A stretch of DNA of 64,000 bases from Ianthella basta (Eukaryota; Porifera; Demospongiae; Verongiida; Ianthellidae), in assembly GCA_964019415.1 (NCBI GenBank), contig OZ025874.1, positions 9,462,409 to 9,526,408 of the forward strand. The letters run 5' to 3'. The notes below the pieces were generated by a model, which did no database searches, had not been told where the DNA came from, and saw nothing but the letters and a program-made list of their open reading frames with translations. Shown here piece after piece: positions 3,001 to 64,000 of the stretch. The position numbers were made by a program, and so were the translations under genes. Each line of letters starts with the position of its first letter. The stretch's first letter is position 1.

Positions 3001-6000
3001 GGCAAGATATGACAAGGTAAGATTTGGCAAGATTTGGCAAAATATGACAAAGTAACATTTGGCAAGATTTGGCAAGTTATGACAAAGTTGGATTTGGCAA
3101 GATTTAGCAAGATTTGGCAAGATATGACAAAGTTGGATTTGGCAAGATTTAGCAAGATATGACCACGTAAGATTTAGCAAGATATGACAAGGTAAGATCT
3201 GGCAAGATACGACAAGGTAAGATCTTGCAAGATATGACGAGGTAAGATTTTGCAAGATATTGCAAGATATGGCAAGGTAAGATAAGGCAAGATTTGGCAG
3301 GATATGACAAGGTAATATTTGGCAAGATTTGGCAAGATATGAAAAGGTAAGATTTGGCAAGATTTGGCAAGATATGACAAAGTAAGTTTTGGCAAGATTT
3401 GGCACGATATGACAAAGTAAGATTAGGCATAATTTGGCAAAATATGACAAGGTAAGATTTGGCAAGATTTGGCAAGATATGACAAAGTAAGATTTGGCAA
3501 GATACGACAAGGTAAGATCTGGCAAGATGTGACAAAGTTGGATTTGGCAAGATTTAGCAAGATTTGGCAAGATATGACAAGGTACGATTTGTCAAGATTT
3601 AGAAAGATATGACCACGTAAGATTTGGCAAGATATGACAAGGTAAGATCTGGCAAGATACGACAAGGTAAGATCTGGCAAGATATGACGAGGTAAGATTT
3701 TGCAAGATTTTGCAAGATCTGGCAAGGTAAGATAAGGCAAGCTTTGGCAGGATATGACAGGAAATATTTGGCAAGATTTGGCAATATATGAAAAGGTAAG
3801 ATTTGGCAAGATTTGGCAGGATATGACAAAGTAAGATTTGGCAAGATTTGGCACGATATGACAAAGTAAGATTAGGCATGATTTGGCAAAATATGGCAAG
3901 GTAAGATTTAGCAAGATTTGGCAAGATATGACAAGGTAAGATTTGGCAAGATTTGGCAAGATATGACAAGGTAAGATTTGGAAAGATTTGGCGAGATATG
4001 ACAAGGTAAGATTTGGCAAGATTTGGCAAGATATGACAAGGTAAGATGAAGCAAGATTTGGCAAGATATGAAAAAGTAAGAATAGGCAAGATTTGGCAAG
4101 ATATGACAACTTAAAGGTAAGACTTGGCAAGATTTGGCAAGATAGGATAAGGTAAGATAAAGCAAGATTTGGCAAGATATAACAAGGTAAGATTAAGCAA
4201 GATTAGGCAAGATATGACAAGGTAAGATTTGGCAAGATTTGGCAAGATTTGGTAAGATATGACAAGGTAAGATGCGGCAAGATTTGGCAGGATAGGACAA
4301 GGTAAGTTTTGGCAAGATTAGGCAAGATATTACAAGGTAATATTTGGCAAGATTTGGCAAAATATGACAAGATAAGATTTGGCAAGATTTGGCAAGATAT
4401 GACAAGGAAAAATTAGTCAAGATTTGGCAAGATATGACAAGGTAAGATTTGGAAAGATTAGGCAAGATTTGGCGAGCTATGACAAGGTAAGATTTGGCAA
4501 GATTTTGCAAGATATGACAAGGTAAGATTTGGCAAGATTTGGCAAGATATGACAAGGTAAGATTAGTCAAGATTTGGCAAGATATGACAAGGTAAGATTT
4601 GGCAAGATTAGGCAAGATTTGGCGAGCTATGACAAGGTAAGATTTGGCAAGATTTTGCAAGATATGACAAGGTAAGATTTGGCAAGATTTGGCAAGATAT
4701 GACAAGGTAAGATTAAGCAAGATTTTGTAAGATATGACAAGGTAAGATTTGGCAAGATTTGGCAAGTTATGACAAGGTAATATTTGGTAAGATTTGGCAA
4801 GATATGACAAGGTAAGATTAGACAAGATTAGGCAAGATATGACAAGGTAAGATTTGGCTAGATTAGGCAAGATTTGGCGAGATATGACAAGGTAAGATTT
4901 GGTAAGATTTGGCAAGATTTGACAAGGTAAGATTAAGCAAGATTTGGTAAGATATGAAAAGTAAGATAAGGCAAGATTTGGCAAGATATGACAACTGAAG
5001 GTAAGATTTGGCAAGATTTGGCAAGATATGACATGGTAAGATTAAGCAAAATTTAGCTAGATATGAAAAAGTAAGATTAGGCAAGATTTGGCAAGATATG
5101 ACAAGTTAAGATTTGGAAAGATTAAGCAAGATATGAAGGTAAGATTAGGCAAGATTTGGCAAGATATGACAAGATAAGATTTGGCAAGACTTGGCAAGAT
5201 ATGACAAGGGAATATTTGGCAAGATTTGGCAAGATATAATAAGGTAAGATTCGGCAAGAATTGATAAGATATGACAAGGTAATATTTGGCCAGATTTGGC
5301 AAGATATGACAAGATAAGATTTGGCAAGATTTGGCAAGATATGATAAGGTAATATTTGGCAAGATTTGGCAAGATGTGAGAAGATTAGATTTGGCAAGAT
5401 TTGGCAAGATATGACAAGGTAAATTTAAGCAAGATTTGGCAAGATATGACAAGGTAATGTTTGGCAAAATTTGGCAAGATATGACAAGGTGAGATTAAGC
5501 AAGATTTGGCAAGATATGAAAAAGTAAGATTAGGCAAGATTTGGTAAAATATGACACGATAAGCTTTGGCAAGATATGACAAGGTAAGATTAGTCAAGAT
5601 TTGGCAGGATATGAAATGGTAAGATTTGGCAAGATTTGGCAAAATATGACAATGCAATATTTTGAAGATCTGACAATATATGACAAGGTAAGATTTGGCA
5701 AGATTTGGCAAGATATGATAAGGTAATATTTGGCATGATTAGGCAAGATATGAGAAGATAAGATTTGGCAAGATTAGGCAAGATATGATAAGGTAATATT
5801 TGGCAATATTTGGCAAGATATGAGAAGATGAGATTTAGCAAGATTTGGCAAGATATGACAAGGTAATATTCGGCAAGATCTGGCAATATATGACAAGATA
5901 AGATTTGGCAAGATTTGGCAAGATATGAGAAGATAAGATTTGGCAAGATTTGGCAAGATATGACAAGGTAATATTTGGCAAGATCTGGCAATATATGACA

Positions 6001-7140
6001 AGATAAGATTTGGCAAGATTTGGCAAGATATGATAAGGTAATATTTGGCAAGATTTGGCAAGATATGAGAAGATAAGATTTGGCAAGATAAGGCAAGATA
6101 TGACAAGGTAAGATTGAGCAAGATTTGGCAATATATGAAAAAGTAAGATTAGGCAAGATTTGGCAAGATATGACAAAATAAGATTTGGCAAGATTTGGCT
6201 AGATATGACAGGGTAAGATTTGGCAAGATTTGGCAAGATATGAGAAGATAAGATTTGGCAAGATTTGGCAAGATATGACAAGGTGAGATTAAGCAAGATA
6301 TAAAAAGTAAGATTAGGCAAGATTTGGTAAAATATGACAATGTAAGCTTTGGCAAGATATGACAAGGTAAGATTAGTCAAGATTTGGCAAGATATGACAA
6401 GGTAAGATTTGGCAAGATTTGGCAAGATATGACAAGGTAAGATCAGGCAAGATTTGGCAAGACATCACAAGGTAAGATTTGGCAAGATTAGGCAAGATAT
6501 GACAATGTAAGATCTGGCAAGATTTGGCAAGATTTGGTAAGATATGACAAGGTAAGATTCGGCAAGATTTTGTAAGATATGATAAGGTAAGATTAGGCAA
6601 AATTTGGAAAGATATGATAAGGTAAGATTTGGTAAGATTTGGCAAGATATGACAAGGTAATATTTGGCAAGATTTGGCAAGATATGACAAGATAAGATTT
6701 GGCAAGATTTGGCAAGATATGAAGGTAAGATTAAGCAAGATTTGGGAATTTATGACAAGGTAAGAATTAGAAAGATTTGGCAAGATATGACAAGGTAAGA
6801 TTAAGCAAGATATGATAAGATATGACAAGGTTAGATTTGGCAAGATTTGGCAAGATATGACAAGGTAAGATTTGGCAAGATTTGGCAAGATATGGCAAGG
6901 TAAGATTAGTCAAGATTTGTCAAGATATGACAAGGTAAGATTTAGCAAGATTAGGCAAGATTTGGCGAGTTATGACAAGGTAAGAATTTGTAAGATTTGG
7001 CAAGATATGACAAGGTAAGATTAAGCGAGATTTGGCAAGATATGAAAAGTAAGATAAGGCAAGATTTTTCCAAAATATGACAACTGAAGATAAGATTTGG
7101 CAAGATTTTGCAAGATATGACATGGTAAGATTAAGCAAGA
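1..7140 (+). repeat. Direct segmental repeat, copy A
   Basis: This block is collinear with about 30,630-44,665 in the same orientation. Matching variant strings appear in the same order: 463-756 with 31,090-31,383; 1,120-1,347 with 31,712-31,939; 2,258-2,545 with 38,577-38,864; 3,149-3,550 with 40,023-40,424; 5,057-5,467 with 42,335-42,745; 6,149-6,355 with 43,568-43,774. The offset grows stepwise from about 30.6 to 37.6 kb because the second copy carries the LINE and extra tandem duplications. Copy A lacks the LINE. It is cut by the left edge of the window. Confidence 0.85.
2640..4000 (+). repeat. Divergent satellite sub-block rich in short 25-bp units
   Basis: Within block 1 this stretch is unusual. 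Many units have lost one 10-bp module, leaving about 25 bp (for example AGATCTGGCA, AGATACGACA, AGGTA near 3,190-3,240 and 3,630-3,690). Private variants such as ACAAAGTTGGATTTGG, GACCACGTAAG and GGCAGGATATGACA recur here and at its paralogue near 38,960-41,330, but are scarce elsewhere. It looks like a distinct satellite subfamily or an older, less homogenised part of the array. The boundaries are approximate. Confidence 0.75.
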
Positions 7141-10100
7141 TTTGGCTAGATATGAAAAAGTAAGATTAGGCAAGATTTGGCAAGATATGACAAGTTAAGA
7201 TTTGGCAAGATTAAGCAAGATATGAAGGTAAGATTAGGCAAGATTTGGCAAGATATAACAAGATAAGATTTGGCAAGATTTGGCAAGATATGACAAGGTA
7301 ATATTTGGCAAGATTTGGCAAGATATGACAAGGTAAGATTCGTCAAGAATTGGCAAGATATAACAAGGTAATATTTGGCTAGATTTGGCAAGATATGACA
7401 AGGTAAGATTAGTCAAGATTTGGCAAGATATGACAAGGTAAGATTTGGCAAGATTTGGCAAGATATGATAAGGTAATATTTGACAAGATTTGGCAAGATA
7501 TGAGAAGATAAAATTTTGCAAGATTTGGCAAGATATGATAAGGTAAGATTGAGCAAGATTTGGCAAGATATGACAAGGTAATGTTTGGCAAGTTTTGGCA
7601 AGATATGACAAGGTGAGATTAAGCAAGATTTGGCATGATATGAATAAGTAAGATAAAGGAAGATTTCGTAAGATATGACAAGGTAAGATTTTGCAAGATA
7701 TGAGTCAAGATTTGGCAAGTTATGACAAGATAAGATTTGGCAAGATTTGGCAAGATATGAAGGTAAGATTTGGCAGGATTTGGCAATGTATGACAAGGTG
7801 AGATTAAGCAAGATTTGGCAAGATATGAAAAGTAAGATTAGGCAAGATTTGGCAAGATATGACAAGGTAAGATTAGGCAAGATTTGGCAAGATATGACAA
7901 GGTAAGATTTGGCAAGATTTGGCAAGATATGACAAGGTAAGATTTGGCAAGATTTGGCAAGATATGAGAAGGTAAGATTTGGCAAGATTAGGCAAGATAT
8001 GAAAAGGTAAGATTTGGCAAGATTTGGCAAGATATGACATCTTAAAGGTAAGACTTGGCAAGATTTGGCAAGATATGACAAGGTAAGTTCTGGCAAGATT
8101 TGATTAGATATGAGAAGGTAAGATTTGGCAAGATTAGGCAAGATATGACAAGGTAAGATTTGGCAAGATTTGGCAAGAAATGTCAAGGTAAGAATTGGCA
8201 AGATTTAGCAAGATATGACAAGGTAACCAAATCTTGCCTAATCTTACCTTGTCATATCTTGCCAAATCTTGCCCATTCTTCCTTTTCATATCTTGCCAAA
8301 TCTTGCTTAATCTTACCTTCTCATATCTTGCCAAATCTTGCCAAATCTTACCTTGTCATATCTTGCCAAATCTTGCTTAATCTTACCTTGTCATATCTTG
8401 CCAAATCTTGCCTCATCTTACCTTGTCATATCTTGCCAAATCTTGCCTAATCTTACTTTTTCATATCTTGCCATATCTTGCTTAATCTCACCTTGTCATA
8501 TATTGCCAAATCTTGCCAAATATTACCTTGTCATATCTTGCCAAATCTTGCCAAATTTTACCTTGTCATATCTTGCCAAATCTTGACTAATCTTACCTTG
8601 TCATATCTTGCCAAAACTTACCTTGTCATATCTTACCAAATCTTGCCTAATCTTACCTTGTCATATCTTACAAAATCTTGCTTAATCTTACCTTATCATA
8701 TCTTGCCAAATCTTATCTTGTCATATCTTGCCAAATCTTGCCAAATATTACCTTGTCAAATCTTGCCAAATCTTACCTTGGCAAATCTTACCAAATCTTG
8801 CCTAATCTTACCTTGTCATATCTTGCCTAATCTTGCCAAATCTCACCTTTCATATCTTCCCAAATCTTGCCGAATCTTACCTTCTCATATCTTGCCAAAT
8901 CTTGCCAAATCTTGCCAAATCTTACCTTGTCATATCTTGCCTAATCTTGCCAAATCTTACCTTGTCATATCTTGCCAAATCTTGCCTGATCTTACCTTGT
9001 CATATCTTGCCAAATCTTGCTTATTCTTACTTTTTCATATCTTGCAAAATCTTGACTAATCTTGTCATATCTCGCCAAATCTTGCCAAAGCTTATCTTGT
9101 CATATCTTGCCAAATCTTGCCTAATCTCACCTTGTCATATCTTGCCAAATCTTGCCAAATCTTACCCTGTCATATCTTGCCAAATCTTGCCAAATCTTAC
9201 CATGTCATATCTTGCCAAATCTTACCAAATCTTACCTTGTCATATCTTGCCAAATCTTGCTTAATCTTACCTTGTCATATCTTGCTAAATCTTGCCAATT
9301 CTTACCTTGTCATATCTTGCCAAATCTTGCCAAATCTTACCTTGTCATATCTTGCTTAATCTTGCCAAATCTTACCTTCTCATATCTTGCCAAATCTTGC
9401 CTGATCTTTCCTTGTCATATCTTGCCAAATCTTGCCAAGTCTTACCTTTAGGTTGTCATATCTTGCCAAATCTTGCCTATTCTTCCTTTTCATATCTTGC
9501 CAAATCTTGCTTAATCTTACCTTCTCATATCTTGCCAAATCTTGCCAAATCTTACCTATTCATATCTTGCCTAATCTTGCCAAATCTTATCTTGTCATAT
9601 CTTGCCAAATCTTGCCTAATCTTACCTTGTCATATCTTGCCAAATCTTGCTTATTCTTACTTTTTCATATCTTGCCAAATCTTGCTTGATCTCACCTTGT
9701 CATATATTGCCAAATCTTGCCAAATATTACCTTGTCATATCTTGCCAAATCTTGCCTAATCTCACCTTGTCATATCTTGCCAAATCTTGACTAATCTTAC
9801 CTTGTCATATCTTGCCAAAGCTTACCTTGTCATATCTTACCAAATCTTGCCTAATCTTACCTTGTCATATCTTACCAAATCTTGCTTAATCATACCTTAT
9901 CATATTTTGCCAAATCTTGCCACATCTTATCTTGTCATATCTTGCCAAATCTTGCCAAATATTACCTTGTCATATCTTGCCAAATCTTGCTAAATCTTAC
10001 CTTGTCATATCTTGCCAAATCTTGCCTAATCTTACCTTGTCATATCTTGCCTAATCTTGCCAAATCTTACCTTGTCATATCTTGCCAAATCTTGCCGAAT

Positions 10101-12992
10101 CTTACCTTGTCATATCTTGCCAAATCTGGCCAAATCTTGCCAAATCTTACCTTGTCATATCTTGCCTAATCTTGCCAAATCTTACCTTGTCATATCTTGC
10201 CAAATCTTGCCTGATCTTACCTTGTCATATCTTGCCAAATCTTGCTTATTCTTACTTTTTCATATCTTGCCAAATCTTGACTAATCTTACCTTGACATAT
10301 CTCGCCAAATCTTGCCAAATCTTACCTTGTCATATCTTGCCAAATCTTGCCAAATCTTACCCTGTCATATCTTGCCAAATCTTGCCAAATCTTACCATGT
10401 CATATCTTGCCTAATCTTGCCTAATCTTAAATTTTCATATCTTGCCAAATCTTGCTTAATCTTACCTTGTCATATCTTACCTTGTTATATGTTACCAAAT
10501 CTTGCCAAATCTTACCTTGTCATATCTTGCCTAATCTTGCCAAATCTTACCTTGTCATATCTTGCCTAATATTGCCTGATCTTACCTTATTATATCTTGC
10601 CAAATCTTGTCAACTCTTACCTTTAAGTTGTCATATTTTGCCAAATCTTGCCTATTCTTACTTTTTCATATCTTGCCAAATCTTGACTAATCATACCTTC
10701 TCATATCTTGCCAAATCTTGCCAAATCTTACCATGTCATATCTTGCCAAATCTTGCCTAATCTAACCTTGTCATATCTTACCAAATCATGCTTAATCTTA
10801 CCTTGTCATATCTTGCCAAATCTTGCCAAATCTTATCTTGTCATATCTTGCCAAATCTTGCCAAATATTACCTTGTCATATCTTGCCAAATCTTGCCAAA
10901 TCTTACCTTGGCATATCTTACCAAATCTAGCCTAATCTTACCTTGTCATATCTTGCCAAATCTTGCGAAATCTTACCTTGTCATATCTTTCCAAATCTTG
11001 CCGAATCTTACCTTGTCATATCTTACTAAATTTTGCCAAACCTTGCCAAATCTTACCTTGTCATATCTTGCCTAATCTTGCCAAATCTTATCTTGTCATA
11101 TCTTGCCAAATGTTGCCTGATCTTACCTTGTCATATCTTGCCAAATCTTGCTTATTCTTACTTTTTCATATCTTGCCAAATCTTGACTATTCATACCTAG
11201 TCATATATCGCCAAATCTTGCAAAATCTTACCTTATCATATCTTGCCAAATCTTGCCTAATCTTACATTGTCATATCTTGCCAAATCTTGCCAAATCTTA
11301 CCCTGTCAAATCTTGCCAAATCTTGCTAAATCTTACCATGTCATATCTTGCCAAATCTTGCCTAATCTTACTTTTTCATATCTTGCCAAATCTTACTTAA
11401 TCTTACCTAGTTATATCTTGCCAAATCTTGCCAAATCTTACCTTGTCATATCTTACCAAATCTTTCCAATTCTTACCTTCTCATATCTTACTAAATCTTG
11501 CTTAATTTTACCTTCATATCTTGCCAAATCTTGCCAAATCTTATCCTGTCATATCTTGCCAAATCTTGCCAAATATTACCTTGTCATATCTTGCAAAATC
11601 TTGCCAAATCTTACCTTGTCATATCTTACTAAATTTTGCCAAATCTTGCCAAATCTTACCTTGTCATATCTTGCCAAATGTTGCCTGATCTTACCTTGTC
11701 ATATCTTGCCAAATCATGCTTATTCTTACTTTTTCATATCTTGCCAAATCTTGACTAATCATACCTTGTCATATCTCGCCAAATCTTGCCAAATCTTACC
11801 TTATCATATCTTGCCAAATCTTGCCTGATCTTACCTTGTCATATCTTGCCAAATCTTGCCAAATATTACCTTGTCATATCTTGCCAAATCTTGCCAACTT
11901 TTACCTTGTCATATCTTGCCAAATCTTAACTAATCGTACCTTGTCAAATCTTGCCAAAGCTTACCTTATCTTATCTTACCAAATCTTGCCTAATCTTACC
12001 TTGTCATATCTTACCAAATCTTGCTTAATCTTACCTTATCATATCTTGCCAAATCTTGCCACATCTTATCTTGTCATATCTTGCCAAATCTTGCCAAATC
12101 TTATCTTGTCATATCTTGCCAAATCTTGCCAAATATTACCTTGTCATATCTTGCCAAATCTTGCGGAATCTTACCTTGTCATATCTTTCCAAATCTTGCC
12201 GAATCTTACCTTGTCATATCTTACTAAATTTTGCCAAACCTTGCCAAATCTTACCTTGTCATATCTTGCCTAATCTTGCCAAATCTTACCTTGTCATATT
12301 TTGCCAAATGTTGCCTGATCTTACCTTGTCATATCTTGCCAAATCTTGCATATTCTTACTTTTTCATATCTTGCCAAATCTTGACTAATCATACCTAGTC
12401 ATATATCGCCAAATCTTGCCAAATCTTACCTTATCATATCTTGCCAAATCTTGCCTAATCTTACCTTGTCATATCTTGCCAAATCTTGCCAAATCTTACC
12501 CTGTCAAATCTTGCCAAATCTTGCCAAATCTTACCATGTCATATCTTGCCAAATCTTGCCTAATCTTACTTTTTCATATCTTGCCAAATCTTACTTAATC
12601 TTACCTTGTTATGTCTTGCCAAATCTTGCCAAATCTTACCTTGTCATATCTTGCCAAATCTTTCCAATTCTTACCTTCTCATATCTTACCAAATCTTGCT
12701 TAATTTTACCTTCATATCTTGCCAAATCTTGCCAAATCTTATCCTGTCATATCTTGCCAAATCTTGCCAAATATTACCTTGTCATATCTTGCAAAATCTT
12801 GCCAAATCTTACCTTGTCATATCTTACTAAATTTTGCCAAATCTTGCCAAATCTTACCTTGTCATATTTTGCCTAATCTTAAGCTTGCCAAATCTTACCT
12901 TGTCATATCTTGCCAAATGTTGCCTGATCTTACCTTGTCATATCTTGCCAAATCATGCTTATTCTTACTTTTTCATATCTTGCCAAATCTTG
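3714..12992 (+). repeat. Giant inverted repeat P, left arm (about 9.3 kb)
   Basis: Position x here pairs with 67,715 minus x on the other strand (67,714 beyond a 1-bp indel near 7,070). The relation holds across the whole arm: 8,160-8,450 with 59,265-59,555; 9,432-9,689 with 58,026-58,283; 11,253-11,828 with 55,887-56,462; 12,451-12,876 with 54,839-55,264; 5,057-5,467 with 62,247-62,657. In the stretches compared, the translated arms differ by zero to three residues. The arm includes the orientation switch at 8,226. Its left end is set only by the end of the window on the partner side. Confidence 0.92.
8222..8228. other. Satellite orientation switch 1
   Basis: The top strand changes from the purine-rich unit to its complement through the short string GGTAACC. 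The sequences on either side do not form a long hairpin: read outward, their variants and register differ. This is therefore a junction between two oppositely oriented arrays, not the centre of a recent palindrome. The same junction is present in reverse complement at 59,487-59,493. Confidence 0.9.
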
Positions 12993-15900: not shown

Positions 15901-18605
15901 GTCATATCTTGCCAAATCTTGCCTAATCTTACCTTGTCATATCTTGCCAAATCTTACCTTGTCATATCTTGCCTAATCTTGCCTAATCTTACTTTTTCAT
16001 ATCTTGCCAAATCTTGCTTAATCTTACCTTGTCATATCTTGCCAAATCTTGCCAAACCTTACCTTGTCATATCTTGCCTAATCTTGCCAAATCTTACATT
16101 GTCATATCTTATCAAATCTTGCCTGATCTTACCTTGTCATATCTTGCCAAATCTTGCCTATTCTTACTTTTTCATATCTTGCCAAATCTTGACTAATCTT
16201 ACCTTATCATATCTTGCCAAATCTTGCCTTATCTTACCTTGTCATATCTTGCCAAATCTTGCCAAATCTTACCTTTTCATATCTCGCCAAATCTTGCCAA
16301 ATCTTACATTGGCATAACTTACCAAATCTTGCCTAATCTTACCTTGTCATATCTTGCCTAATCTTGCCAAATCTTACTATCAATTTGTCATATCTTGCCA
16401 AATCTTGCCGAATCTTACCTTGTCATATCTTGCCAAATCTTGCCAAATCTTACCTTGTCATGTCTTGCCAAATCTTGTCAAATCTTACCATGTTATATTT
16501 TGCCAAATCTTGCCTAATCTTACTTTTTCATATCTTGCCAAATCTTGCTTAATCTTACCTTATCATATCTTGCCAAATCTTGCCAAATCTTACCTTGTCA
16601 TATCTCGCCAAATCTTGCCAAATCTTGCCAAATCTTACCTTCTCATATCTTGCCTACTCTTGCCAAATCTTACCTTCATATCTTACCCAATTCTGCCTAT
16701 ACTTACCTTGTCATATCTTGCCTAAACTTGCTTAATCTTACCTTGTCATATCTTGCCAAATCTTACCAAATATTACCTTGTCATATCTTGCCAAATCTTG
16801 CCTAATCTTACTTTTTTATATCTTGCCAAATCTTGCTTAATCTTACCTTGTCATATCTTACCAAATCTTGCCAAATCTTACCTTGTCATATCTCGCCAAA
16901 TCTTGCCAAATCTGACATTGTCATATCTTGCCAAATCTTGCCTAATCTTACCTTGTCGTATCTTGCCAAATCTTGCCAAATCTTACCTTGTCATATCTTG
17001 CCAAATCTTGCCAAATCTTTCCATGTCATATTTTACCAAATCTTACCTAATCTTACTTTTTCATATCTTGCCAAATCTTGCTTAATCTTACCTTGTCATA
17101 TCTAGCCAAATCTTGCCAAATCTTACCTTGTCATATCTTACCAAATCTTTCCAATTCTTACCTTGTCATATCTTACCAAATCTTACTTATAATCTTACCT
17201 TCATATCTTGCCAAATCTTGCCAATTCTTATCTTGTCATATCTTGCCAAATCTTGCCTGATCTTACCTTGTCATATCTTACCTAATCTTGCCAAATCTTA
17301 CCTTGTAATATCTTGCCAAATCTTGCCTGATCTTACCTTGTCATATCTTGCCAAATCTTGCCAAGTCTTACCTTTAACTTATCATATCTTGCCAAATCTT
17401 GCCAAATCTTACTTTTCATATCTTGCCAAATCTTGCCAAATCTTACCTTGTCATATCTTGCAAAATCTTGCCAAATCTTACTTTGTCATATCTCGCCAAA
17501 TCTTGCCAAATCTTGCCAAATCTTACCTTGTCATATCTTGCCTACTCTTGCCAAATCTTACCTTCATATCTTACCAAATTTTGCCTAAACTTACCTTGTC
17601 ATAGCTTGCCTAATCTTTTTTAATCTTACCTTGTCATATCTTGCCAAATCTTACCAAATATTACCTTGTCATATCTTGCCAAATCTTGCCTAATCTTACC
17701 TTTTCATATCTTGCCAAATCTTCCCAAATCTTATCTTGTCATATCTTGCCAAATCTTGCCAAATCTTACCATGTAATATCTTGCCAAATCTTGCCTAATC
17801 TTACTTTTTCATATCTTGCCAAATCTTGCATAATCTTACCATGTCATATCTTGCCAAATCTTGCCTAATCTTACATTGTCATATCTTACCAAATCTTGCT
17901 TAATTTTACCTTGTCATATCTTGCCAAATCTTGACTAATCTTATCTTCTCATATCTTGCCAAATCTTGCCAAATATTACCTTGTCATATCTTGCCAAATC
18001 TTGCCAAATCTTACCTTGGCATATCTTACCAAATCTTGCCTAATCTTACCTTGTCAAATCTTGCCAAATCTTGCCGAATCTTACCTAGTCATATCTTACC
18101 AAATCTTGCCAAATCTTACCTTGTCATATCTTGCCTAATCTTGTCAAATCTTACCTTGTCATATCTTGCCAAATCTTGCCTGATCTTACCTTGTCATATC
18201 TTGCCAAATCTTGCCAAGCCTTACCTTTAAGTTGTCATATCTTGCCAAATCTTGACTAATCTTACCTTGTCATATCTTGCCAAATTTTGCCAAATCTTAC
18301 CTTGTCATATCTCGCCAAATCTTGCCAAATCTTACATTGTCATATCTTGCCAAATCTTGCCTAATCTTACCTTGTCATATCTTGCCAAATCTTACCAAAT
18401 CTTACCTTGTCATATCTTGCCAAATCTTGCCAAATCTTACCATGTCATACTTTGCCAAATCTTGCCTAATCTTACTTTTTCATATCTTGCCAAATCTTGC
18501 TTAATCTTACCTTGTCATATCTTGCCAAATCTTGCCAAATCTTACTTTGTCATATCTCGCCAAATCTTGAAAAATCTTGCCAAATCTTGCCAAATCTTAC
18601 CTTGT
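8227..18605 (-). repeat. 35-bp satellite array, block 2 (inverted)
   Basis: This is the same satellite as block 1 with the purine-rich strand on the bottom; the top strand reads CCAAATCTTGCC and ACCTTGTCATATCTTG. Units of 35 bp predominate, with 45-bp units that contain an extra CCAAATCTTG module (for example near 13,300 and 17,500). Landmark variants such as CTTTAAGTTGTCATATC or CTTTAACTTATCATATC mark higher-order repeats (about 10,620, 13,920, 14,475, 14,965, 15,605 and 17,370). Long plus-strand ORFs here come from the stop-free repeat. I see nothing else in the block. Confidence 0.97.
12977..17830 (+). repeat. Giant inverted repeat Q, left arm (about 4.85 kb)
   Basis: Position x pairs with 36,825 minus x on the opposite strand, without drift. 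Examples are 13,143-13,598 with 23,227-23,682; 13,651-13,989 with 22,836-23,174; 14,462-14,692 with 22,133-22,363; 16,364-16,552 with 20,273-20,461; 17,399-17,623 with 19,202-19,426. Most paired translations are identical or differ by one residue. Similarity falls off after about 17,830. At the outer end the match starts at 12,977, inside 16 bp shared with the end of repeat P. Confidence 0.92.
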
Positions 18606-18994
18606 GACAAGGTAAGATTAAGCAAGATTTGACAAGATTTGCCGAGATATGACAAAGTAAGATTTGGCAAGATTTGGCAAGATATGACAAGGCAAGATTA
18701 AGCAAGATTTGGCAAGATATGAAAAAGTAAGATTAGGCAAGATTTGGCAAGATATGATAAGTTAAAGGTAAGACTTGGCAAGATTTGGCAAGTTATGACA
18801 AGGTAAGATCAGGCATGACTTGGCAAGATATGAAGGTAAGATTTGGCAAGATTAGGCAAGATATGACAAGGTAAGATTTGGCAAGATTTGGCAAGATTTG
18901 GCAAATTCTGACAAGGTAAGATCAGGCAAGATTTGGTAAGATATGACAAGGTAAGATTTGGCAAGATTAGGCAAGATATGACAGGGTAAGATTA
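17831..18994. repeat. Asymmetric centre of inverted repeat Q
   Basis: About 1.16 kb lies between the two Q arms. The left part, to 18,605, is satellite in inverted orientation; the right part, from 18,607, is in forward orientation. The two parts are of unequal length and do not mirror each other closely. The right part, 18,607 to about 18,970, is a near-identical direct copy of about 21,060-21,425, including the rare strings GATTTGCCGAGATATG and GGCATGACTTGGC. Confidence 0.8.
18596..18616. other. Satellite orientation switch 2, small hairpin
   Basis: The top strand switches back to the purine-rich orientation here. The junction is a perfect small inverted repeat: CTTACCTTGT, one G, then ACAAGGTAAG. 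It lies about 190 bp from the geometric centre of inverted repeat Q (18,412.5), so the orientation change and the palindrome centre are not the same event. Confidence 0.88.
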
Positions 18995-26800: not shown

Positions 26801-26899
26801 TGACAAGATATGACATGGTAAGATTAAGCAAGATTTGGCTAGATATGAAAAAGCAAGATTAGGCAAGATTTTGCAACATATGACAAGGTAAGTTTTGGC

Positions 26900-37326: not shown

Positions 37327-37342
37327 GTAAGATTTGGCAAGA
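37327..37342 (+). repeat. Candidate target-site duplication, right copy
   Basis: GTAAGATTTGGCAAGA follows the LINE tail and matches 33,975-33,990. Unoccupied paralogous sites that read across the same point without the element are visible near 700-745 and 31,330-31,375. Confidence 0.6.
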
Positions 37343-44400: not shown

Positions 44401-46279
44401 AAGCAAGATATGATAAGATATGACAAGGTAAGATTTGGCAAGATTTGGCAAGATATGACAAGGTAAGATTTGGCAAGATTTGGCAAGATATGACAAGGTA
44501 AGATTTAGCAAGATTAGGCAAGATTTGGCGAGTTATGACAAGGTAAGAATTTGTAAGATTTGGCAAGATATGACAAGGTAAGATTAAGCAAGATTTGGCA
44601 AGATATGAAAAGTAAGATAAGGCAAGATTTTGCAAAATATGACAACTGAAGATAAGATTTGGCAAGATTTAGCAAGATATGACATGGTAAGATTAAGCAA
44701 GATTTGGCTAGATATGAAAAAGTAAGATTAGGCAAGATTTGGCAAGATATGGCAAGTTAAGATTCGGCAAGATTTGGCAAGATATGACAAGATAAGATTT
44801 GGCAAGATTTGGCAAGATATGAAGGTAAGATTAAGCAAGATTTGGTAACATATGACAAAGTAAGAATTGGAAAGATTTGGCAAGATATGACAAGGTAAGA
44901 TTTGTCAAGATTTGGCAAGATATGAGAAGGCAAGATTAAGCAAGATTTGGCAAGATATGAAAAAGTAAGATTAGGCAAGATTATGTAAGATATGACATGG
45001 TAAGATTTGGCAAGATATGACAGGGTAAGATTTGACAAGATTTGGCAAGATATGACAAGGTAAGATTAGGCAAGATTTGGCAAGATATGACAAGGTAAGA
45101 TTTGGCAAGATTTGGCGAGATGTGACAAGGTAAGATTAGTCAAGATTTGGCAAGATATGAAAAAGTAAGAATAAGCAAGATTTGGCAAGATAAGACAACG
45201 TAAGATCAGGCAAGATTTGGCGAGATATGACAAGGTAAGATTTGGCAAGATTAGGCAAGATATGACAAGGTAAGATTTGGCAAGATTTGGCCTGATTTGG
45301 CAAGATATGACAAGGTAAGATTCGGCAAAATTAGGCAAGAAATGACGAGGTAAGATTTGGCAAGATTAGGCAAGATATGACAAGGTAAGATTAGGCAAGA
45401 TTTGGTAAGATATGCCAATGTAAGATTAGTCAAGATTTGGAAAGATATGACAAGGTAATATTTGGCAAGATTTGGCAAGATATGACAAGATAAGATGTGG
45501 CAAGATTTGGCAAGATATGATAAGGTAAGATTAAGCAAGATTTGGTAAGATATGACAAGGTAAGATTAGGCAAGATTTGGTAAGATAAGATAAGGTAAGC
45601 TTTGGCAAGATTTGACAAGGTAAGATTAGTTAAGATTTGGCAAGATATGACAAGGTAAATGTTGGCAAGATTTGGCAAGATATGACAAGGTAATATTTGG
45701 CAAGATTAGGCAATATATGACAAGGTGAGATTAAGCAAGATATTGCAAGATATGAAAAAGTAAGATTAGGCAAGATTTGGCAAGATATGACAAGGTAAGA
45801 TTAGGCAAGATTTGGCAAGATATGACAAGGTAAGATTTGGCAAGATTTGGCAAGATATGACAAGGTAAGATTTGGCAAGATTTGGCAAGTTATGAGAAGG
45901 TAGGATTAAGCAAGATTTGTCAAGATATGAAAAGGAAGAATAGGCAAGATTTGGCAAGATATGACAACTAAAAGGTAAGACTTGGCAAGATTTGGCAAGA
46001 TATGACAAGGTAAGATCTGGCAAGATTTGGCAAGATTAGAGAAGGTAAGATATGGCAAGATTAGGCAAGATATGACAAGGTAAGATTTGGCAAGATTTGG
46101 CAAGATTTGGTAAGATATGACAAGGTAAGATTCGGCAAGATTTGGCAAGATATGACAAGGTAAGATTAGGCAAGATTTAGCAACATATGACAAGGTAAGA
46201 TTTGGCAAGATTTGGCAAGATATGACAAGGTAATATTTGGCAAGATTTGGCAAGATATGACAGGATAAGAATTGGCAAG

Positions 46280-49200
46280 ATTTGGCAAGATATGAAGGTT
46301 AAATTAAGCAAGATTTGGTAAGATATGAGAAGGTAAGAATTGGAAAGATTTGTTAAGATATGACAAGGTAAGATTTAAAAAGATTTGGCAAGATATAAAA
46401 AGGTAAGATTAGGCAAGATTGGGCAAGATATGACATGGTAAGATTTGGCAAGGTTTGGCAAGATTTGGCAGGATAAGATTTGGCAAGATTTGGCAAGATA
46501 TGATAAGGTAAGATTAGGCAAGATTTGGCAAGATATGATAAGGTAAGATTTGGCAAGCTTTGGCAAGATATGACAAGGTATGATTAGTCAAGATTTGGCA
46601 AGATATGAAAAAGTAAGAATAGGCAACATTTGGCAAGATTATACAAGGTAAGATTTGGCAAGATTTGGCAAAACTTTAGTAAGATATGACAAGGTAAGAT
46701 TTGGCAAGCTTTTGCATGATATGACAAGGTAATATTTGGCAAGATTTGGCAAGATATGACAGGATAGGATTTGGCAAGATTTGGCAAGATATGAAGGTAA
46801 AATTAAGCAAGATTTGGTAAGATATTAGAAGGTAAGAATTGGAAAGACTAGGCAAGATATGACAAGGTAAGATTTGTCAAGATTTGGCAAGATATAACAA
46901 GGTAAGATTTAGTAAGATTTGGCAAGATATGAAAAAGTAAGATTAGGCAAGATTTGGCAAGATATGACATGGTAAGATTTGGCAAGATTTGGCAAGATTT
47001 GACAGGGTAAGATTTGGCAAGATATGACAAGGTAAGATTAGGCAAGATTTGGCAAGATATGATAAGGTAAGATTTGGCAAGATTTGGCGAGATATGACAA
47101 GGTATGATTCGTCAAGATTTGGCAAGATATGAAAAAGTAAGAATAAGCAAGATTTGGCAAGATATGACAAGGTAAGATCAGGCAACATTTGGCAAAATAT
47201 GACAAGGTGAGATTAAGCAAGATTTGGCAAGATATGAATAAGTCAGATAAAGGAAGATAAAGTAAGATATGACAAGGTAAGCTTTTGCAAGATATGAGTC
47301 AAGATTTGGCAAGTTATGACAAGAGAAGATTTGGCAAGATTTGGCAAGATATGAAGGTAAGATTTGGCAGGATTTGGCAATATATGACAAGGTGAGATTA
47401 AGCAAGATTTGGCAAGATATGAAAAAGTAAGATTAGGCAAGATTTGGCAAGATATGACAAGGTAAGATTAGGCAAGATTTGGCAAGATATGACAAGGTAA
47501 GATTAGGCAAGATTTGGCAAGATATGACAAGGTAAGATTTGGCAAGATTTGGCAAGATATGAGAAGGTAAGATTAAGCAAGATTTGGCTAAATATGAAAA
47601 GGAAGAATAGGCAAGATTTGGCAAGATATGACAACTTAAAGGTAAGACTTGGCTAGATTTGGCAAGATATGACAAGGTAAGATCAGGCAAGATTAGGCAA
47701 GATATGACAAGGTAAGATTTGGCAAGATTAGGCAAGATATGACAAGGTAAGATTTGGCAAGATTTGGCAAGATTTGGTAAGATATGACAAGGTAAGATTC
47801 GGCAAGATTTGGCAAGATATGTCAAGGTAAGATTAGGCAAGATTTGGAAAGATATGAGAAGGTAAGATTTGGCAAGATTTGGCAAGATATGACAAGGTAA
47901 TATTTGGCAAGATTTGGAAAGATATGACAAGATAAGATTTGGCAAGATTTGGCAAGATATGAAGGTAAGATTAAGCAAGATTTGGTAACATATGACAAAG
48001 TAAGAATTGGAAAGATTTGGCAAGATATGACAAGGTAAGATTTATCAAGATTTGGCAAGATATGAGAAGGCAAGATTAAGCAAGATTTGGCAAGATATGA
48101 AAAAGTAAGATTAGGCAAGATTTTGCAAGATATGACATGGTAAGATTTGGCAAGATATGACAGGGTAAGATTTGACAAGATTTGGCAAGATATGACAAGG
48201 TAAGATTAGGCAAGATTTGGCAAGATATGACAAGGTAAGATTTGGCAAGATTTGGCGAGATGTGACAAGGTAAGATTAGTCAAGATTTGGCAAGATATGA
48301 AAAAGTAAGAATAAGCAAGATTTGGCAAGATAAGACAACGTAAGATCAGGCAAGATTTGGCAAGATATGACAAAGTAAGATTTGGCAAGATTAGGCAAGA
48401 TATGACAAGGTAAGATTTGGCAAGATTTGGCCAGATTTGGCAAGATATGACAAGGTAAGATTTGGCAAGATTTGGCAAGATTTGTTAAGATATGACAAGG
48501 TAAGATTCGGCAAGATTTGGCAAGATATGTCAAGGTAAGATTAGGCAAGATTTGGAAAGAAATGACAAGGTAAGATTTGGCAAGATTTGGCAAGATATGA
48601 CAAGGTAATATTTGGCAAGATTTGGAAAGATATGACAAGATAAGATTTGGCAAGATTTGGCAAGATATGAAGGTAAGATTAAGCAAGATTTGGTAACATA
48701 TGACAAAGTAAGAATTGGAAAGATTTGGCAAGATATGGCAAGGTAAGATTTATCAAGATTTGGCAAGATATGAGAAGGCAAGATTAAGCAAGATTTGGCA
48801 AGATATGAAAAAGTAAGATTGGGCAAGATTTTGCAAGATATGACATGGTAAGATTTGGCAAGATATGACAGGGTAAGATTTGACAAGATTTGGTAAGATA
48901 TGACAAGGTAAGATTAGGCAAGATTTGGCAAGATATGACAAGGTAAGATTTGGCAAGATTTGGCGAGATGTGACAAGGTAAGATTAGTCAAGATTTGGCA
49001 AGATATGAAAAAGTAAGAATAAGCAAGATTTGACAAGATAAGACAACGTAAGATCCGGCAAGATTTGGCAAGATATGACAAGGTAAGATTTGGCAAGATT
49101 AGGCAAGATATGACAAGGTAAGATTTGGCAAGATTTGGCCAGATTTGGCAAGATATGACAAGGTAAGATTCGGCAAAATTAGGCATGAAATGACAAGGTA

Positions 49201-52200
49201 AGATGTGGCAAGATTAGGCAAGATATGACAAGGTAAGATTAGGCAAGATTTGGTAAGATATGCCAATGTAAGATTAGTCAAGATTTGGCAAGATATGACA
49301 AGGTAATATTTGGCAAGATTTGGCAAGATATGACAAGATAAGATTTGGCAAGATTTGGCAAGATATGATAAGGTAAGATTAAGCAAGATTTGGTTAGATA
49401 TGACAGGGTAAGATTCGGCAAAATTAGGCAAGAAATGACAAGGTAAGATTTGGCAAGATTAGGCAAGATATGACAAGGCAAGATTAAGCAAGATTTGGCA
49501 AGATATGAAAAAGTAAGATTAGGCAAGATTTTGCAAGATATGACATGGTAAGATTTGGCAAGATATGACAGGGTAAGATTTGGCCAGATTTGGCAAGATA
49601 TGACAAGGTAAGATTCGGCAAAATTAGGCAAGAAATGACAAGGTAAGATTTGGCAAGATTAGGCAAGATATGACAAGGAAAGATTAAGCAAGATTTGGCA
49701 AGATATGAAAAAGTAAGATTAGGCAAGATTTTGCAAGATATGACATGGTAAGATTTGGCAAGATATGACAGGGTAAGATTTGACAAGATTTGGCGAGATG
49801 TGACAAGGTAAGATTAGTCAAGATTTGGCAAGATATGAAAAAGTAAGAATAAGCAAGATTTGGCAAGATAAGACAACGTAAGATCAGGCAAGATTTGGCA
49901 AGATATGACAAGGTAAGATTTGGCAAGATTAGGCAAGATATGACAAGGTAAGATTTGGCAAGATTTGGCCAGATTTGGCAAGATATGACAAGGTAAGATT
50001 CGGCAAAATTAGGCAAGAAATGACAAGGTAAGATTTGGCAAGATTAGGCAAGATATGACAAGGTAAGATTAGGCAAGATTTGGTAAGATATGCCAATGTA
50101 AGATTAGTCAGGATTTGGAAAGATATGACAAGGTAATATTCGGCAAGATTTGGCAAGATATGACAAGGTATGATTAGGCAAGATTTAGCAAGATATGACA
50201 AGGTAAGATTTGGCAAGATTTGGCAAGATATGACAAGGTAATATTTGGCAAGATTTGGCAAGATATGACAGGATAAGATTTGGCAAGATTTGGCAAGATA
50301 TGAAGGTAAAATTAAGCAAGATTTGGTAAGATATGAGAAGGTAAGAATTTGAAAGATTTGGCAAGATTTGACAAGGTAAGATTTGGCAAGATTTGGCAAG
50401 ATATAACAAGGTAAGATTAAGTAAGATTTGGCAAGATATGAAAAAGTAAGATTAGACAAGATTTGGCAAGATATGACATGGTAAGATTGGGCAAAGTTTG
50501 GCAAGATTTGACAGGGTAAGATTTGGCAAGATTTGGCAAGATATGACAATGTAAGATTAGGCAAGATTTGGCAAGATATGATAAGGTAAGATTTGGCAAG
50601 ATTTGGTGAGATATGACAAGGTATGATTAGTCAAGATTTGGCAAGATATGAAAAAGTAAGAATAAGCATGATTTGGCAAGATATGACAAGGTAAGATTAA
50701 GCATGATTTGGTAAGATATGACAATGTAAGATTAGGCAAGATTTGGCAAGATATGACAAGGTAAGATTTGGCAACATTTGGCAAGATATGACAAGATAAG
50801 ATTTGGCAAGATTTAGTAAGATATGACAAGGTAAGATTCGGCAAGATTTGGAAAGATATGACAAGGTAAGATTTCGCAAGATTTGGCAAGATATGACAAG
50901 GTAAGATTAGGCTAGATTTGGTAAGATATGACAAGATAAGATTTGGCAAGATTTGGCAAGATATGACAAGGTAAGATTAAGCATGATTTGGTAAGATATG
51001 ACAAGGTTAGATTAGGCAAGATATGGCAAGATATGACATGGTAAGATTTGGCAAGATTTGGCACGATATGACAAGGTAAGATTTGGCAAGCTTAAGATTA
51101 GGCAAAATATGACAAGGTAAGATTTGGCAAGATTTGGCAAAATTTAGTAAGATTTGACAAGGTAAGATTTGGCAAGATTTTGCAAGATATGACAAGGTAA
51201 TATTTGGCAAGATTTGGCAAGATATGACAGGATAAGATTTGGCAAGATTTGGCAAGATATGAAGGTAAAATTAAGCAAGATTTGGTAAGATATGAGACGG
51301 TAAGAATTGGAAAGATTTGGCAAGATATGACAAGGTAAGATTTGGCAAGATTTTGCAAGATATAACAAGGTAAGATTAAGTAAGATTTGGTAAGATATGA
51401 AAAAGTAAGATTAGGCAAGATTTGGCAAGATATGACATGGTAAGATTTGGCAAGATTTGGCAAGATTTGACAGGGTAAGATTTGGCAAGATTTGGCAAGA
51501 TATGACAATGTAAGATTAGGCATGATTTGGCAAGATATGATAAGGTAAGATTTGGCAAGATTTGGCGATATATGACTAGGTATGATTAGTCAAGATTTGG
51601 CAAGATATGAAAAAGTAAGAATATGCAAGATTTGGCAAGATATGACAAGGTAAGATCAGGCAACATTTGGCAAAATATGACAAGGTAAGATTTGGCAAGA
51701 TTAGGCAAGATATGACAAGGTAAGATTTGGCAAGGTTTGGCAAAATTTAGTAAGATATGACAAGGTAAGATTCGGCAAGATTTGGAAAGATATGACAAGG
51801 TAAGATTCCGCAAGATTTGGCAAGATATGACAAGGTAATAATTGGCAAGATTTGGCAAGATATGACAAGATAAGATTTGGCAAGATTTGGCAAGATATGA
51901 CAAGATAAGATGTGGCAAGATTTGGCAAGATATGATAAGGTAAGATTAAGCAAGATTTGGTAAGATATGACAAGGTAAGATTAGGCAAGATTTGGTAAGA
52001 TAAGATAAGGTAAGCTTTGGCAAGATTTGACAAGGTACGATTAGTTAAGATTTGGCAAGATATGACAAGGTAAAAGTTGGCAAGATTTGGCAAGATATGA
52101 CAAGGTAATATTTGGCAAGATTTGGCAAGATATGACAAGGTAAGATTAGGCAAGATTTGGCAAGATATGATAAGGTAAGATTTGGCAAGATTTGGCGAGA

Positions 52201-55200
52201 TATGACAAGGTATGATTAGTCAAGATTTGGCAAGATATGAAAAAGTAAGAATAAGCATGATTTGGCAAGATAAGACAAGGTAAGATCAGGCAACATTTGG
52301 CAAGATATGACAAGGTAAGATTTGGCATGCTTAAGATTAGGCAAGATATGACAAGGTAAGATTTGGCAAGATTTGGCAAAATTTAGTAAGATATGACAAG
52401 GTAAGATTTGGCAAGATTTTGCAAGATATGACAAGGTAATATTTGGCAAGATTTGGCAAGATATGACAGGATAAGATTTGGCAAGATTTGGCAAGATATG
52501 AAGGTAAAATTAAGCAAGATTTGGTAAGATATGAGAAGGTAAGAATTGGAAAGATTTAGCAAGATTTGACAAGGTAAGATTTGGCAAGATTTGGCAAGAT
52601 ATAACAAGGTAAGATTAAGTAAGATTTGGCAAGATATGAAAAAGTAAGATTAGACAAGATTTGGCAAGATATGACATGGTAAGATTGGGCAAGGTTTGGC
52701 AAGATTTGACAGGTTAAGATTTGGCAAGATTTGGCAAGATATGACAAGGTAAGATTAGGCAAGATTTGGCAAGATATGACAAGGTAAGATCAGGCAACAT
52801 TTAGCAAGATATGACAAGGTAAGATTTGGCAAGCTTAAGATTAGGCAAATTATGACAAGGTAAGATTTGGCAAGATTTGGCAAAATTTAGTAAGATATGA
52901 CAAGGTAAGATTTGGCAAGATTTTGCAAGATATGACAAGGTAATATTTGGCAAGATTTGGCAAGATATGACAGGACAGGATTTGGCAAGATTTGGCAAGA
53001 TATGAAGGTAAAATTAAGCAAGATTTGGTAAGATATGAGAAGGTAAGAATTGGAAAGATTTGGCAAGATATGACAAGGTAAGATTTGGCAAGATTTGGCA
53101 AGATATAACAAGGTAAGATTAAGTAAGATTTGGCAAGATATGAAAAAGTAAGATTAGGCAAGATTTGGCAAGATATGACATGGTAAGATTTGGCAACATT
53201 TGGCAAGATTTGACAGGGTAAGATTTGGCAAGATTTGGCAAGATATGACAATGTAAGATTAGGCAAGATTTGGCAAGATATGATAAGGTAAGATTTGGCA
53301 AGATTTGGCGATATATGACTAGGTATGATTAGTCAAGATTTGGCAAGATATGAAAAAGTAAGAATATGCAAGATTAGGCAAGATATGACAAGGTAAGATC
53401 AGGCAACATTTGGCAAAATATGACAAGGTAAGATTTGGCAAGATTAGGCAAGATATGACAAGGTAAGATTTGGCGAGGTTTGGCAAAATTTAGTAAGATA
53501 TGACAAGGTAAGATTCGGCAAGATTTGGAAAGATATGACAAGGTAATATTTGGCAAGATTTGGCAAGATATGACAAGATAAGATTTGGCAAGATTTGGCA
53601 AGATATGACAAGATAAGATGTGGCAAGATTTGGCAAGATATGATAAGGTAAGATTAAGCAATATTTGGTAAGATATGACAAGGTAAGATTAGGCAAGATT
53701 TGGCAAGATATGACAAGGTAATATTTGGCAAGATTTGGCAAGATATGACAAGGTAAGTTTAGGCAAGATTTGGCAAGATATGATAAGGTAAGATTTGGCA
53801 AGATTTGGCGAGATATGACAAGGTAAGATTTGGCAAGCTTAAGATTAGGCAAAATATGACAAGGTAAGATTTGGCAAGATTTGGCAAAATTTAGTAAGAT
53901 ATGACAAGGTAAGATTTGGCAAGATTTTGCAAGATATGACAAGGTAATATTTGGCAAGATTTGGCAAGATATGACAGGATAAGATTTGGCAAGATTTGGC
54001 AAGATATGAAGGTAAAATTAAGCAAGATTTGGTAAGATATGAGAAGGTAAGAATTGGAAAGATTTGGCAAGATATGACAAGGTAAGATTTGGCAAGATTT
54101 GGCAAGATATAACTAGGTAAGATTAAGTAAGATTTGGCAAGATATGAAAAAGTAAGATTAGGCAAGATTTGGCAAGATATGACATGGTAAGATTTGGCAA
54201 GATTTGGCAAGATTTGACAGGGTAAGATTTGGCAAGATTTGGCAAGATATGACAAGGTAAGATTAGGCAAGCTTTGGCAAGATATGATAAGGTAAGATTT
54301 GGCAAGATTTGGCGATATATGACTAAGTATGATTAGTCAAGATTTGGCAAGATATAAAAAAGTAAGAATAAGCAAGATTTGGCAAGATATGACAAGGTAA
54401 GATCAGACAACATTTGGCAACATATGACAAGGTAAGATTTGGCAAGATTAGGCAAGATATGACAAGGTAAGATTTGGCAAGATTTAGCAAGATATAACAA
54501 GGTAAGATTAAGTAAGATTTGGCAAGATATGAAAAAGTAAGATTAGACAAGATTTGGCAAGATATGACATGGTAAGATTGGGCAAGGTTTGGCAAGATTT
54601 GACAGGGTAAGATTTGGCAAGATTTGGCAAGATATGACAAGGTAAGATTAGGCAAGATTTGGCAAGATATGATAAGGTAAGATTTGGCAAGATTTGGCGA
54701 GATATGACAAGGTATGATTAGTCAAGATTTGGCAAGATATGAAAAAGTAAGAATAAGCATGATTTGGCAAGATATGACAAGGTAAGATCAGGCAACATTT
54801 GGCAAGATATGACAAGGTAAGATTTGGCAAGCTTAAGATTAGGCAAAATATGACAAGGTAAGATTTGGCAAGATTTGGCAAAATTTAGTAAGATATGACA
54901 AGGTAAGATTTGGCAAGATTTTGCAAGATATGACAAGGTAATATTTGGCAAGATTTGGCAAGATATGACAGGATAAGATTTGGCAAGATTTGGCAAGATA
55001 TGAAGGTAAAATTAAGCAAGATTTGGTAAGATATGAGAAGGTAAGAATTGGAAAGATTTGGCAAGATATGACAAGGTAAGATTTGGCAAGATTTGGCAAG
55101 ATATAACAAGGTAAGATTAAGTAAGATTTGGCAAGATATGAAAAAGTAAGATTAGGCAAGATTTGGCAAGATATGACATGGTAAGATTTGGCAAGATTTG

Positions 55201-59486: not shown

Positions 59487-59493
59487 GGTTACC
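59487..59493. other. Satellite orientation switch 3
   Basis: The top strand changes back to the inverted orientation through GGTTACC. This is the exact reverse complement of switch 1 at 8,222-8,228, with the same flanking variants. The two junctions are therefore copies of one ancestral event carried in repeat P. Confidence 0.92.
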
Positions 59494-62400: not shown

Positions 62401-64000
62401 CTTGTCATATCTTGCCAAATCTGGCCAAATATTACCTTGTCATATCTTATCAATTCTTGCCGAATCTTACCTTATCATATCTTGCCAAATCTTGCCAAAT
62501 ATTCCCTTGTCATATCTTGCCAAGTCTTGCCAAATCTTATCTTGTCATATCTTGCCAAATCTTGCCTAATCTTACCTTCATATCTTGCTTAATCTTGCCA
62601 AATCTTAACTTGTCATATCTTGCCAAATCTTGCCTAATCTTACTTTTTCATATCTAGCTAAATTTTGCTTAATCTTACCATGTCATATCTTGCCAAATCT
62701 TGCCAAATCTTACCTTCAGTTGTCATATCTTGCCAAATCTTGCCTTATCTTACTTTTCATATCTTACCAAATCTTGCTTAATCTTACCTTGTCAAATCTT
62801 GCCAAATCTTACCAAATCTTACCTTGTCATATCTCGCCAAATCTTGCCTAATCTAGCCAAATCTTACCTTGTCATATCTTGCCTAATCTTGTCTAATCTT
62901 ACCTTGTCATATCTTGCCAAATCTTACCAAATATTACCTTGTCATAACTTGCCAAATCTTGCCAAATCTTACCTTGTCATATCTTACAAAATCTTGCTTA
63001 ATCTTACCTTGTAATATCTTGCCAAATCTTGCCAAATCTTACCTTGTCATATCTTGCAAAATCTTGCCAAATCTTACCTTGTCATAGCTCGCCAAATCTT
63101 GCCTAATCTTGCCAAATCTTACCTAGTCATATCTTGCCAAATCTTGACTAATCTTACCTTGTCATATCTTGCCAAATCTTGCCAAATCTTACCTTGTCAT
63201 ATCTTGCAAAATCTTGCCAAATCTTACCTTGTCATAGCTCGCCAAATCTTGCCTAATCTTTCCAAATCTTACCTTGTCATATCTTGCCTAATCTTGACTA
63301 ATTTTTCCTTGTCATATCTTGCCAAATCTTGCCAAATCTTATCTTGTCATATTTTGCCAAATCTTGCCAAATATTACCTTGTAATATCTTGCCTAATCTT
63401 GCCAAAACTTACCTTGTCCTATCCTGCCAAATCTTGCCGCATCTTACCTTGTCAAATCTTACCAAATCTTGCCAAATCTTGCCAAATCTTACCTTGTCAT
63501 ATCTTGCCTAATCTTGCTTAATCTTACCTTGTCATATCTTGCCAAATCTTGCTTTATCTTACCTTATCCTATCTTGCCAAATCTTGCCAAGTCTTACCTT
63601 TAAGTTGTCATATCTTGCCAAATCTTGCCTATTCTTACTTTTTCATATCTTGCCAAATCTTGCTTAATCTTACCTTGTCATATCTTGCCAAATCTTGCCA
63701 AATCTTACCTTGTCATATCTCGCCAAATCTTTCCAAATCTTACCTTGTCATATCTTGCCAAATCTTGCCAAATCTTACCTTGTCATATCTTGCCAAATCT
63801 TGCTAAATCTTACCTTGCCATATTTTGCCAAATCATGCCTAATCTTACTTTGTCATATCGTGCCAAATCTTGCCAAATCTTACTTTGTCATATCCTGCCA
63901 AATCTTGCCAAATCTTACCTTTTCATATATTGCCAAATCTTGCCAAATATTTCCTGTCATATCCTGCCAAAGCTTGCCTTATCTTACCTTGCCAGATCTT
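59491..64000 (-). repeat. 35-bp satellite array, block 5 (inverted)
   Basis: This is satellite in inverted orientation to the window end. It lies wholly inside the right arm of repeat P and mirrors 3,714-8,224. The last 200 bp carry the short-unit variants of the 2.6-4.0 kb sub-block. Nothing else is seen. Confidence 0.96.

Follow-up and report, generated by a model that had tools for sequence, protein, structure and literature searches.

Satellite arrays that switch orientation have been described in the genus Tribolium, where inverted subarrays, from several kilobases up to tens of kilobases long, form so-called macro-dyad symmetries (PMC13081366). Such satellites were reported for T. madens, T. 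freemani and T. castaneum, and in the passages of this 2026 paper on which we draw, the inversion sites are described as conserved and the authors call macro-dyad symmetries documented in that genus alone (PMC13081366). Inversions within the higher-order units of human centromeric satellites are few, according to the part of a review that addresses them (PMC9859433). For human fold-back inverted duplications, the relevant passages give 21 sequenced spacers of 766 to 70,466 bp with a median of 3,428 bp (PMC3907307). Here we describe a stretch of 64,000 bp from the sponge Ianthella basta (contig OZ025874.1, positions 9,462,409 to 9,526,408), referred to below as the window. It consists almost entirely of a 35-bp satellite, and its left part (3,714-17,829) reads as the reverse complement of its right part (18,996-64,000) with one gap, so that both form one palindrome with a hinge near 18,412. 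Among described structures, the macro-dyad symmetries of Tribolium come closest to it.

One gapped palindrome in a 35-bp satellite

The window has a G+C content of 36% by base counts, and its satellite is broken by one long interspersed nuclear element (LINE). The orientation of the satellite was read from the sign of the GC skew together with the strand of the repeat. The array runs on the plus strand from 1 to 8226, on the minus strand from 8227 to 18605, again on the plus strand from 18607 to 59488 (with the LINE in this block) and on the minus strand from 59489 to 64000. There are therefore three orientation switches in 64 kb, and multi-kilobase inverted subarrays of the macro-dyad type are present within the window. 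The first switch, J1 (plus to minus, 8226..8227), is seen in the GC skew, the repeat strand and the sequence itself. The second, J2 (minus to plus, 18605..18607), was located by direct reading of the sequence; it lies within the hinge and is formed by a 13-bp inverted repeat centred on the single base 18606.

To define the arms, exact matches of at least 50 bases were chained, and the two largest inverted chains yielded two pairs. The outer left arm A (3714-12992, plus strand), which holds J1, is the reverse complement of the outer right arm A′ (54723-64000, minus strand), which holds J3. In a global alignment of 9,279 columns, we found 9,252 matches, 26 mismatches and one 1-bp indel (99.7% identity). 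An earlier note on this DNA had reported this pair as reverse complements with sparse differences and one 1-bp indel, which is exact. The note had also stated that the match runs off the window; indeed, it reaches base 64,000, and any partner for sequence to the left of 3714 would fall outside. Past the inner end of A, identity falls to 87% over the next 300 bp. The inner left arm B (12977-17829, plus strand) is the reverse complement of the inner right arm B′ (18996-23848, minus strand), with 3 mismatches in 4,853 bp (99.9% identity) and a longest exact run of 3,413 bases.

The hinge, a spacer of 1,166 bp (17830-18995), separates the inner arms. The exact match stops at 17829/18996, no further base matches on entry into the spacer, and the next 300 bp are 88% identical, which corresponds to background. 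The best match within the window to the 700-bp spacer tile 17851-18550 reached only 91.0%. The inverted copies thus flank a short spacer that is single-copy within the window, and B, hinge and B′ together cover 10.9 kb (12,977-23,848).

On the left side, A and B overlap by 16 bp (12977..12992); on the right side, their partners lie 31 kb apart. The right arm of the palindrome measures at least 45 kb and the left arm at least 14.1 kb; within the window, 14.1 kb of the right arm is paired. The earlier note had placed the arms about 42 kb apart. This holds for the inner ends of A and A′, which are 41.7 kb apart, but the distance is made up of a true spacer of 1.17 kb plus a 30.9-kb gap in the left arm.

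The switch J3 (59488..59489) is the copy of J1 in the other arm. The surroundings of J1 and the reverse complement of those of J3 were identical over the 240 bases compared, and the arm alignment has no differences from 7,789 to 8,463. This identity indicates one switch carried by each arm instead of two independent switches. Since a single switch shared by both arms follows from the palindrome, it supports A and B as parts of a single structure.

Arm identity and the satellite background

Because the 35-bp unit fills almost the entire window, inverted stretches resemble each other everywhere to some degree. Random inverted 1-kb pairs (n=300), which were started at a common 13-base motif and hence in phase, had a median identity of 89.2%. 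In a repeat sampling, 6 of 300 pairs reached at least 97%, all of them on three axes (18,338, 33,728-33,858 and 52,548-52,571), and none of the other 294 exceeded 96.3%. With identities of 99.7% and 99.9%, the arms are well outside this range. The arm alignments and the random-pair controls refute general similarity of the satellite as the cause of the arms, and chance, or homogenisation making the array alike everywhere, is extremely improbable. When 500-bp tiles with an inverted identity of at least 97.5% were counted, 18 fell near axis 18,400 and 36 near 33,850. The same scan gave twelve minor axes with one or two tiles each, or at most three if adjacent bins near 52,500 are pooled by hand as four tiles.

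A third inverted relation connects 41142-44751 with 60526-64000 around an axis near 52,570. Its identity is patchy, up to 100% in one 500-bp tile, and it is perhaps an older inverted copy behind J1 and J3.

A 31-kb segment absent from the left arm

According to the arm coordinates, the right arm contains a segment of 30,890 bp (23833..54722, or equivalently 23849-54738, plus strand) that is absent from the left arm. The LINE lies wholly inside this segment, and no second copy of it is present in the window. At the gap junction, the 16 shared bases lead from A into B, and the repeat stays in its 35-base phase as counted by eye. We considered these 16 bp as the signature of a repair or copying pathway and rejected this, since random in-phase pairs share as much: runs of at least 16 bp occurred in 62.7% of 20,000 such pairs, a figure that is biased upward by anchoring the pairs on the common 13-base motif and tells only that 16 bp is unremarkable.

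The edges of the segment resemble the sequence next to them. Tiles between 23.5 and 25.2 kb are most similar to the inner arms (91.8-95.8%). For tiles between 50.8 and 54.9 kb, the matching sequence is 54.5-57.1 kb, with identities of 91.6-99.4%. Because the extra sequence of the right arm resembles its neighbours, we lean towards a loss from the left arm; copying that skipped these bases is equally possible.

The region 50200-57000 also harbours local long-period copies with spacings of about 1.0, 1.2, 2.0, 2.7, 3.2 and 3.7 kb, which are 97.6-99.4% identical in 500-bp tiles.

Differences between the arms

The two pairs of arms are not equally diverged. Substitutions amount to 3 in 4,853 bp in the inner arms (0.06%) and to 26 in 9,278 bp in the outer arms (0.28%; Fisher p=0.005, odds ratio 4.5). 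When differences within 15 bp were merged, 3 inner and 23 outer events remained (p=0.013). Counted outward from the hinge in three zones, with the indel included, there were 3 differences in 4,837 bases, 10 in 4,766 and 17 in 4,513, the last zone, which is 9.6-14.1 kb away from the spacer, having a divergence of about 0.38%. The positions also departed from even spacing in a Kolmogorov-Smirnov test (p=0.0009 for all differences, 0.007 for merged ones). Neighbouring zones alone did not differ significantly, neither the inner part of the outer arm compared with B (p=0.055) nor the next pair (p=0.18). As the trend inside the outer arm is not significant either, a step at the gap and a gradient are indistinguishable in these data. 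A step would fit two events or conversion confined to the inner arms, and a gradient would fit conversion that falls with distance. The lower divergence points to later homogenisation of the inner arms or to an age below that of the outer arms.

Ongoing gene conversion, one of the explanations put forward in the earlier note, would fit the reduced divergence close to the hinge, which is no proof of it, as the inner arms are compared here with the outer arms (p=0.005) and not with an independently estimated age. A more far-reaching idea is that the hinge steers the homogenisation of the satellite: the arms would pair as a giant hairpin or loop, conversion would work best near the hinge, divergence would climb outward from about 0.06% in the inner 4.8 kb to the value of the outermost zone, and one arm could shed tens of kilobases. 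We regard this as doubtful. If true, orientation switches would be local centres of concerted evolution in satellites.

The nature of the differences bears on whether the arms are two sequences at all. A third copy, sought in 38.0-46.5 kb, polarised 16 substitutions of the outermost zone (of 29 in all), with the derived base in the left arm at 9 sites, in the right arm at 6 and undecided at 1. Only one of the 30 differences is an indel. Long-read errors are usually rich in indels, unlike the differences seen here. Derived bases on both outer arms argue against one arm being merely a re-read of the other, and together with the low share of indels they make it most likely that both arms are genuine sequences, whether from separate loci or from two alleles.

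For 25 of the 29 substitutions, exact 31-base matches in the rest of the window are missing for one of the two alleles. Likewise, neither of the 61-base contexts recurs for 20 of the 29 and one recurs for the remaining 9. Tracts imported from other repeat units are not supported as the source of the differences, except possibly for these 9. The ratio of transitions to transversions (9:20) was not different from that in six older repeat pairs (68:88; p=0.23).

Origin of the palindrome

As judged from the sequence, we consider it moderately probable that the palindrome is an inverted duplication made by either fold-back or a template switch where the satellite already reversed its orientation, combined with an in-phase loss of 31 kb from one arm and perhaps with conversion near the hinge. 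A recent inverted duplication had been proposed in the earlier note, and this remains the best reading, with a different geometry: one palindrome with a spacer of 1.17 kb (17,830-18,995) and a left arm that lacks 30.9 kb. J2 would have been in place from the start as a turn in the orientation of the satellite. An end that was broken or had stalled could then have folded back, or a replicating strand could have switched template, onto the inverted repeats beside J2. Outward copying of the array from there would have produced a near-perfect inverted duplication and would have carried an older switch into both arms, where it is now seen as J1 and J3. One arm may afterwards have lost, or may never have copied, the 31 kb at shared satellite sequence, and the inner arms would either have been homogenised later or be younger than the outer ones. 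Fold-back, template switch and later homogenisation are all steps that we infer. In favour of this origin, the two inverted pairs have ends that coincide within 16 bp on the left side, and the spacer of 1,166 bp is within the range of human fold-back spacers. Moreover, satellite of opposite orientation flanks the hinge, so that inverted homology for folding is at hand.

Several observations weigh against this origin. Had there been one duplication and no conversion after it, inner and outer arms should be equally diverged, and they are not. The tests of divergence and of its trend with distance came after the pattern had been seen, and the outer arm taken by itself shows no significant trend (p=0.17). 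In the polarisation, the assignments of three sites (4701, 7510 and 7517) are weak because their matches in the third copy are not collinear; without them the count is 8 left to 5 right. The sequence shared at the gap junction is no longer than in-phase pairs give and points to no pathway. Homology at the spacer edge is at background, with no excess in the first 300 bp, and satellite of opposite orientation offers such homology everywhere. Measured against other satellite, the two halves of the spacer do not stand out clearly as palindromic about J2, with 32 of 559 controls scoring as high and 28 of 559 as high in identity; the idea that the spacer is an older, diverged palindrome about J2 was dropped on these grounds, although its alignment had seemed persuasive. 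Finally, the evidence for the hinge and the gap junction is the assembled sequence.

The structure could also be the work of the assembler. The earlier note had raised an assembly fold-back, and for a single population of reads this is disfavoured by the derived bases on both outer arms and by the one indel among 30 differences. A fold-back between two haplotypes is another matter: the arms would be two alleles of one array that an assembler had placed head to head at an inverted site near J2, and one of the alleles would carry a 31-kb deletion. Two alleles would also be expected to show 0.06-0.29% divergence with derived bases on both sides, and the arm match runs off the window. Length differences as large as 31 kb are ordinary between satellite alleles. 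On the other hand, B, hinge and B′ span a distance that ordinary long reads can cross, the change in divergence between inner and outer arms has no obvious reason between alleles, and a missed-adapter or duplex read would leave no asymmetric hinge of 1.2 kb. None of these points is decisive, and we consider a haplotype fold-back unlikely, while giving it appreciable weight.

Two successive events could likewise have shaped the locus. An older inverted duplication would have given the outer arms, and a later template switch from the left outer arm would have copied the inner right arm backwards, placing B beside it and replacing what had been there. The roughly 4.5-fold higher divergence of the outer arms (as an odds ratio, p=0.005) speaks for such an order, and the 16-bp junction is compatible with a template switch. 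However, this scenario requires two switch points and more steps, conversion could also produce the difference in divergence, and the inner part of the outer arm compared with B alone reaches only p=0.055. We think it improbable. A single inverted duplication at the existing switch, with an in-phase loss, remains our preferred explanation.

LINE copy and other features of the window

The LINE-type retrotransposon copy (33991..37326, plus strand) has interrupted frames. Its reverse transcriptase region matched RVT_1 (2.4e-23), and the best match in the PDB was LINE-1 ORF2 (1.8e-15). The endonuclease-like region matched Exo_endo_phos at 4.3e-5 and 23.8 bits, just below the curated cut-off of 24.5. 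A 16-bp target site duplication (33975-33990 and 37327-37342) flanks the copy. A search with the joined flanks for an empty site revealed no close one in the window, their matches to other satellite there not exceeding 92.0%. The position of the LINE near the midpoint of the outer arms (33,857) was judged a coincidence, the hinge being near 18,412. Six short peptide patterns from the reverse transcriptase frame were searched in viral and genome contig collections, where 14 stretches and 1 stretch, respectively, matched one pattern and none was confirmed; this search reaches close relatives only.

An exact 30-base pattern of the satellite had no match in the viral or genome contig collections. 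When 11-base pieces of the unit were searched in the texts of papers, no satellite paper was recognisable by title among the matches listed. No Rfam family was found in the window at gathering score.

In addition, a direct duplication without the LINE links the start of the window, about 1-7.2 kb, to about 30.6-44.9 kb, with patchy tile identities from 89.5% to 99.9%. Within this relation, 2076-4407 matches 38395-41835 in three offset pieces with 1 difference in 828 bases, 5 in 1395 and 2 in 966, and tiles from 3851 to 7350 are 89.5-97.9% identical. The stretch 38100-41835 contains local copies about 555 bp apart, apparently more of them than the matching stretch on the left (offsets 36319, 36874 and 37428).

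Comparison with known systems

If the assembly is right, the window adds a case of inverted arms in a 35-bp satellite and is an informative rather than revolutionary illustration of the inversion, copying and shrinkage of repeat arrays. It differs from a plain orientation switch in having base differences between the arms, from which an order of events can be proposed. This order rests on the hinge, the older junction present in both arms, the 31-kb gap in one of them and the unequal divergence along the arms. If real, the locus would be a testable system for sequence exchange between satellite arms.

Among described palindromes, those of sex chromosomes, such as the W chromosome of willow, share with the window arms of more than 99% identity, a spacer that measures a few kilobases, and one arm from which several kilobases are deleted (PMC7023750). 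The willow palindromes contain genes, and their conversion was tested by comparison with a second species; the arms described here consist of satellite and were compared within a single species. Human fold-back inverted duplications resemble the window in that the duplication is built around a short single-copy spacer. In the sections of that study used here, they are large and nonrecurrent, were found in patients, lie in many cases beside terminal deletions and have inverted homology at the spacer edge (PMC3907307). In contrast, the window sits in a satellite in which inverted homology is ubiquitous, and one of its arms has an internal gap. The macro-dyads of Tribolium share orientation switching over kilobases and inverted satellite subarrays with the window. 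The units of T. madens derive from an element of about 110 bp, whereas the unit here is 35 bp (PMC13081366). In Tribolium, the conserved sequence of the inversion site is described as present at many genomic positions, and the arrays as lying in putative (peri)centromeric regions (PMC13081366). The window has three switches in 64 kb, of which J1 and J3 are copies of one another, and arms that differ in length by 31 kb and are nearly identical base for base; the Tribolium passages used here do not mention arm-to-arm identity.

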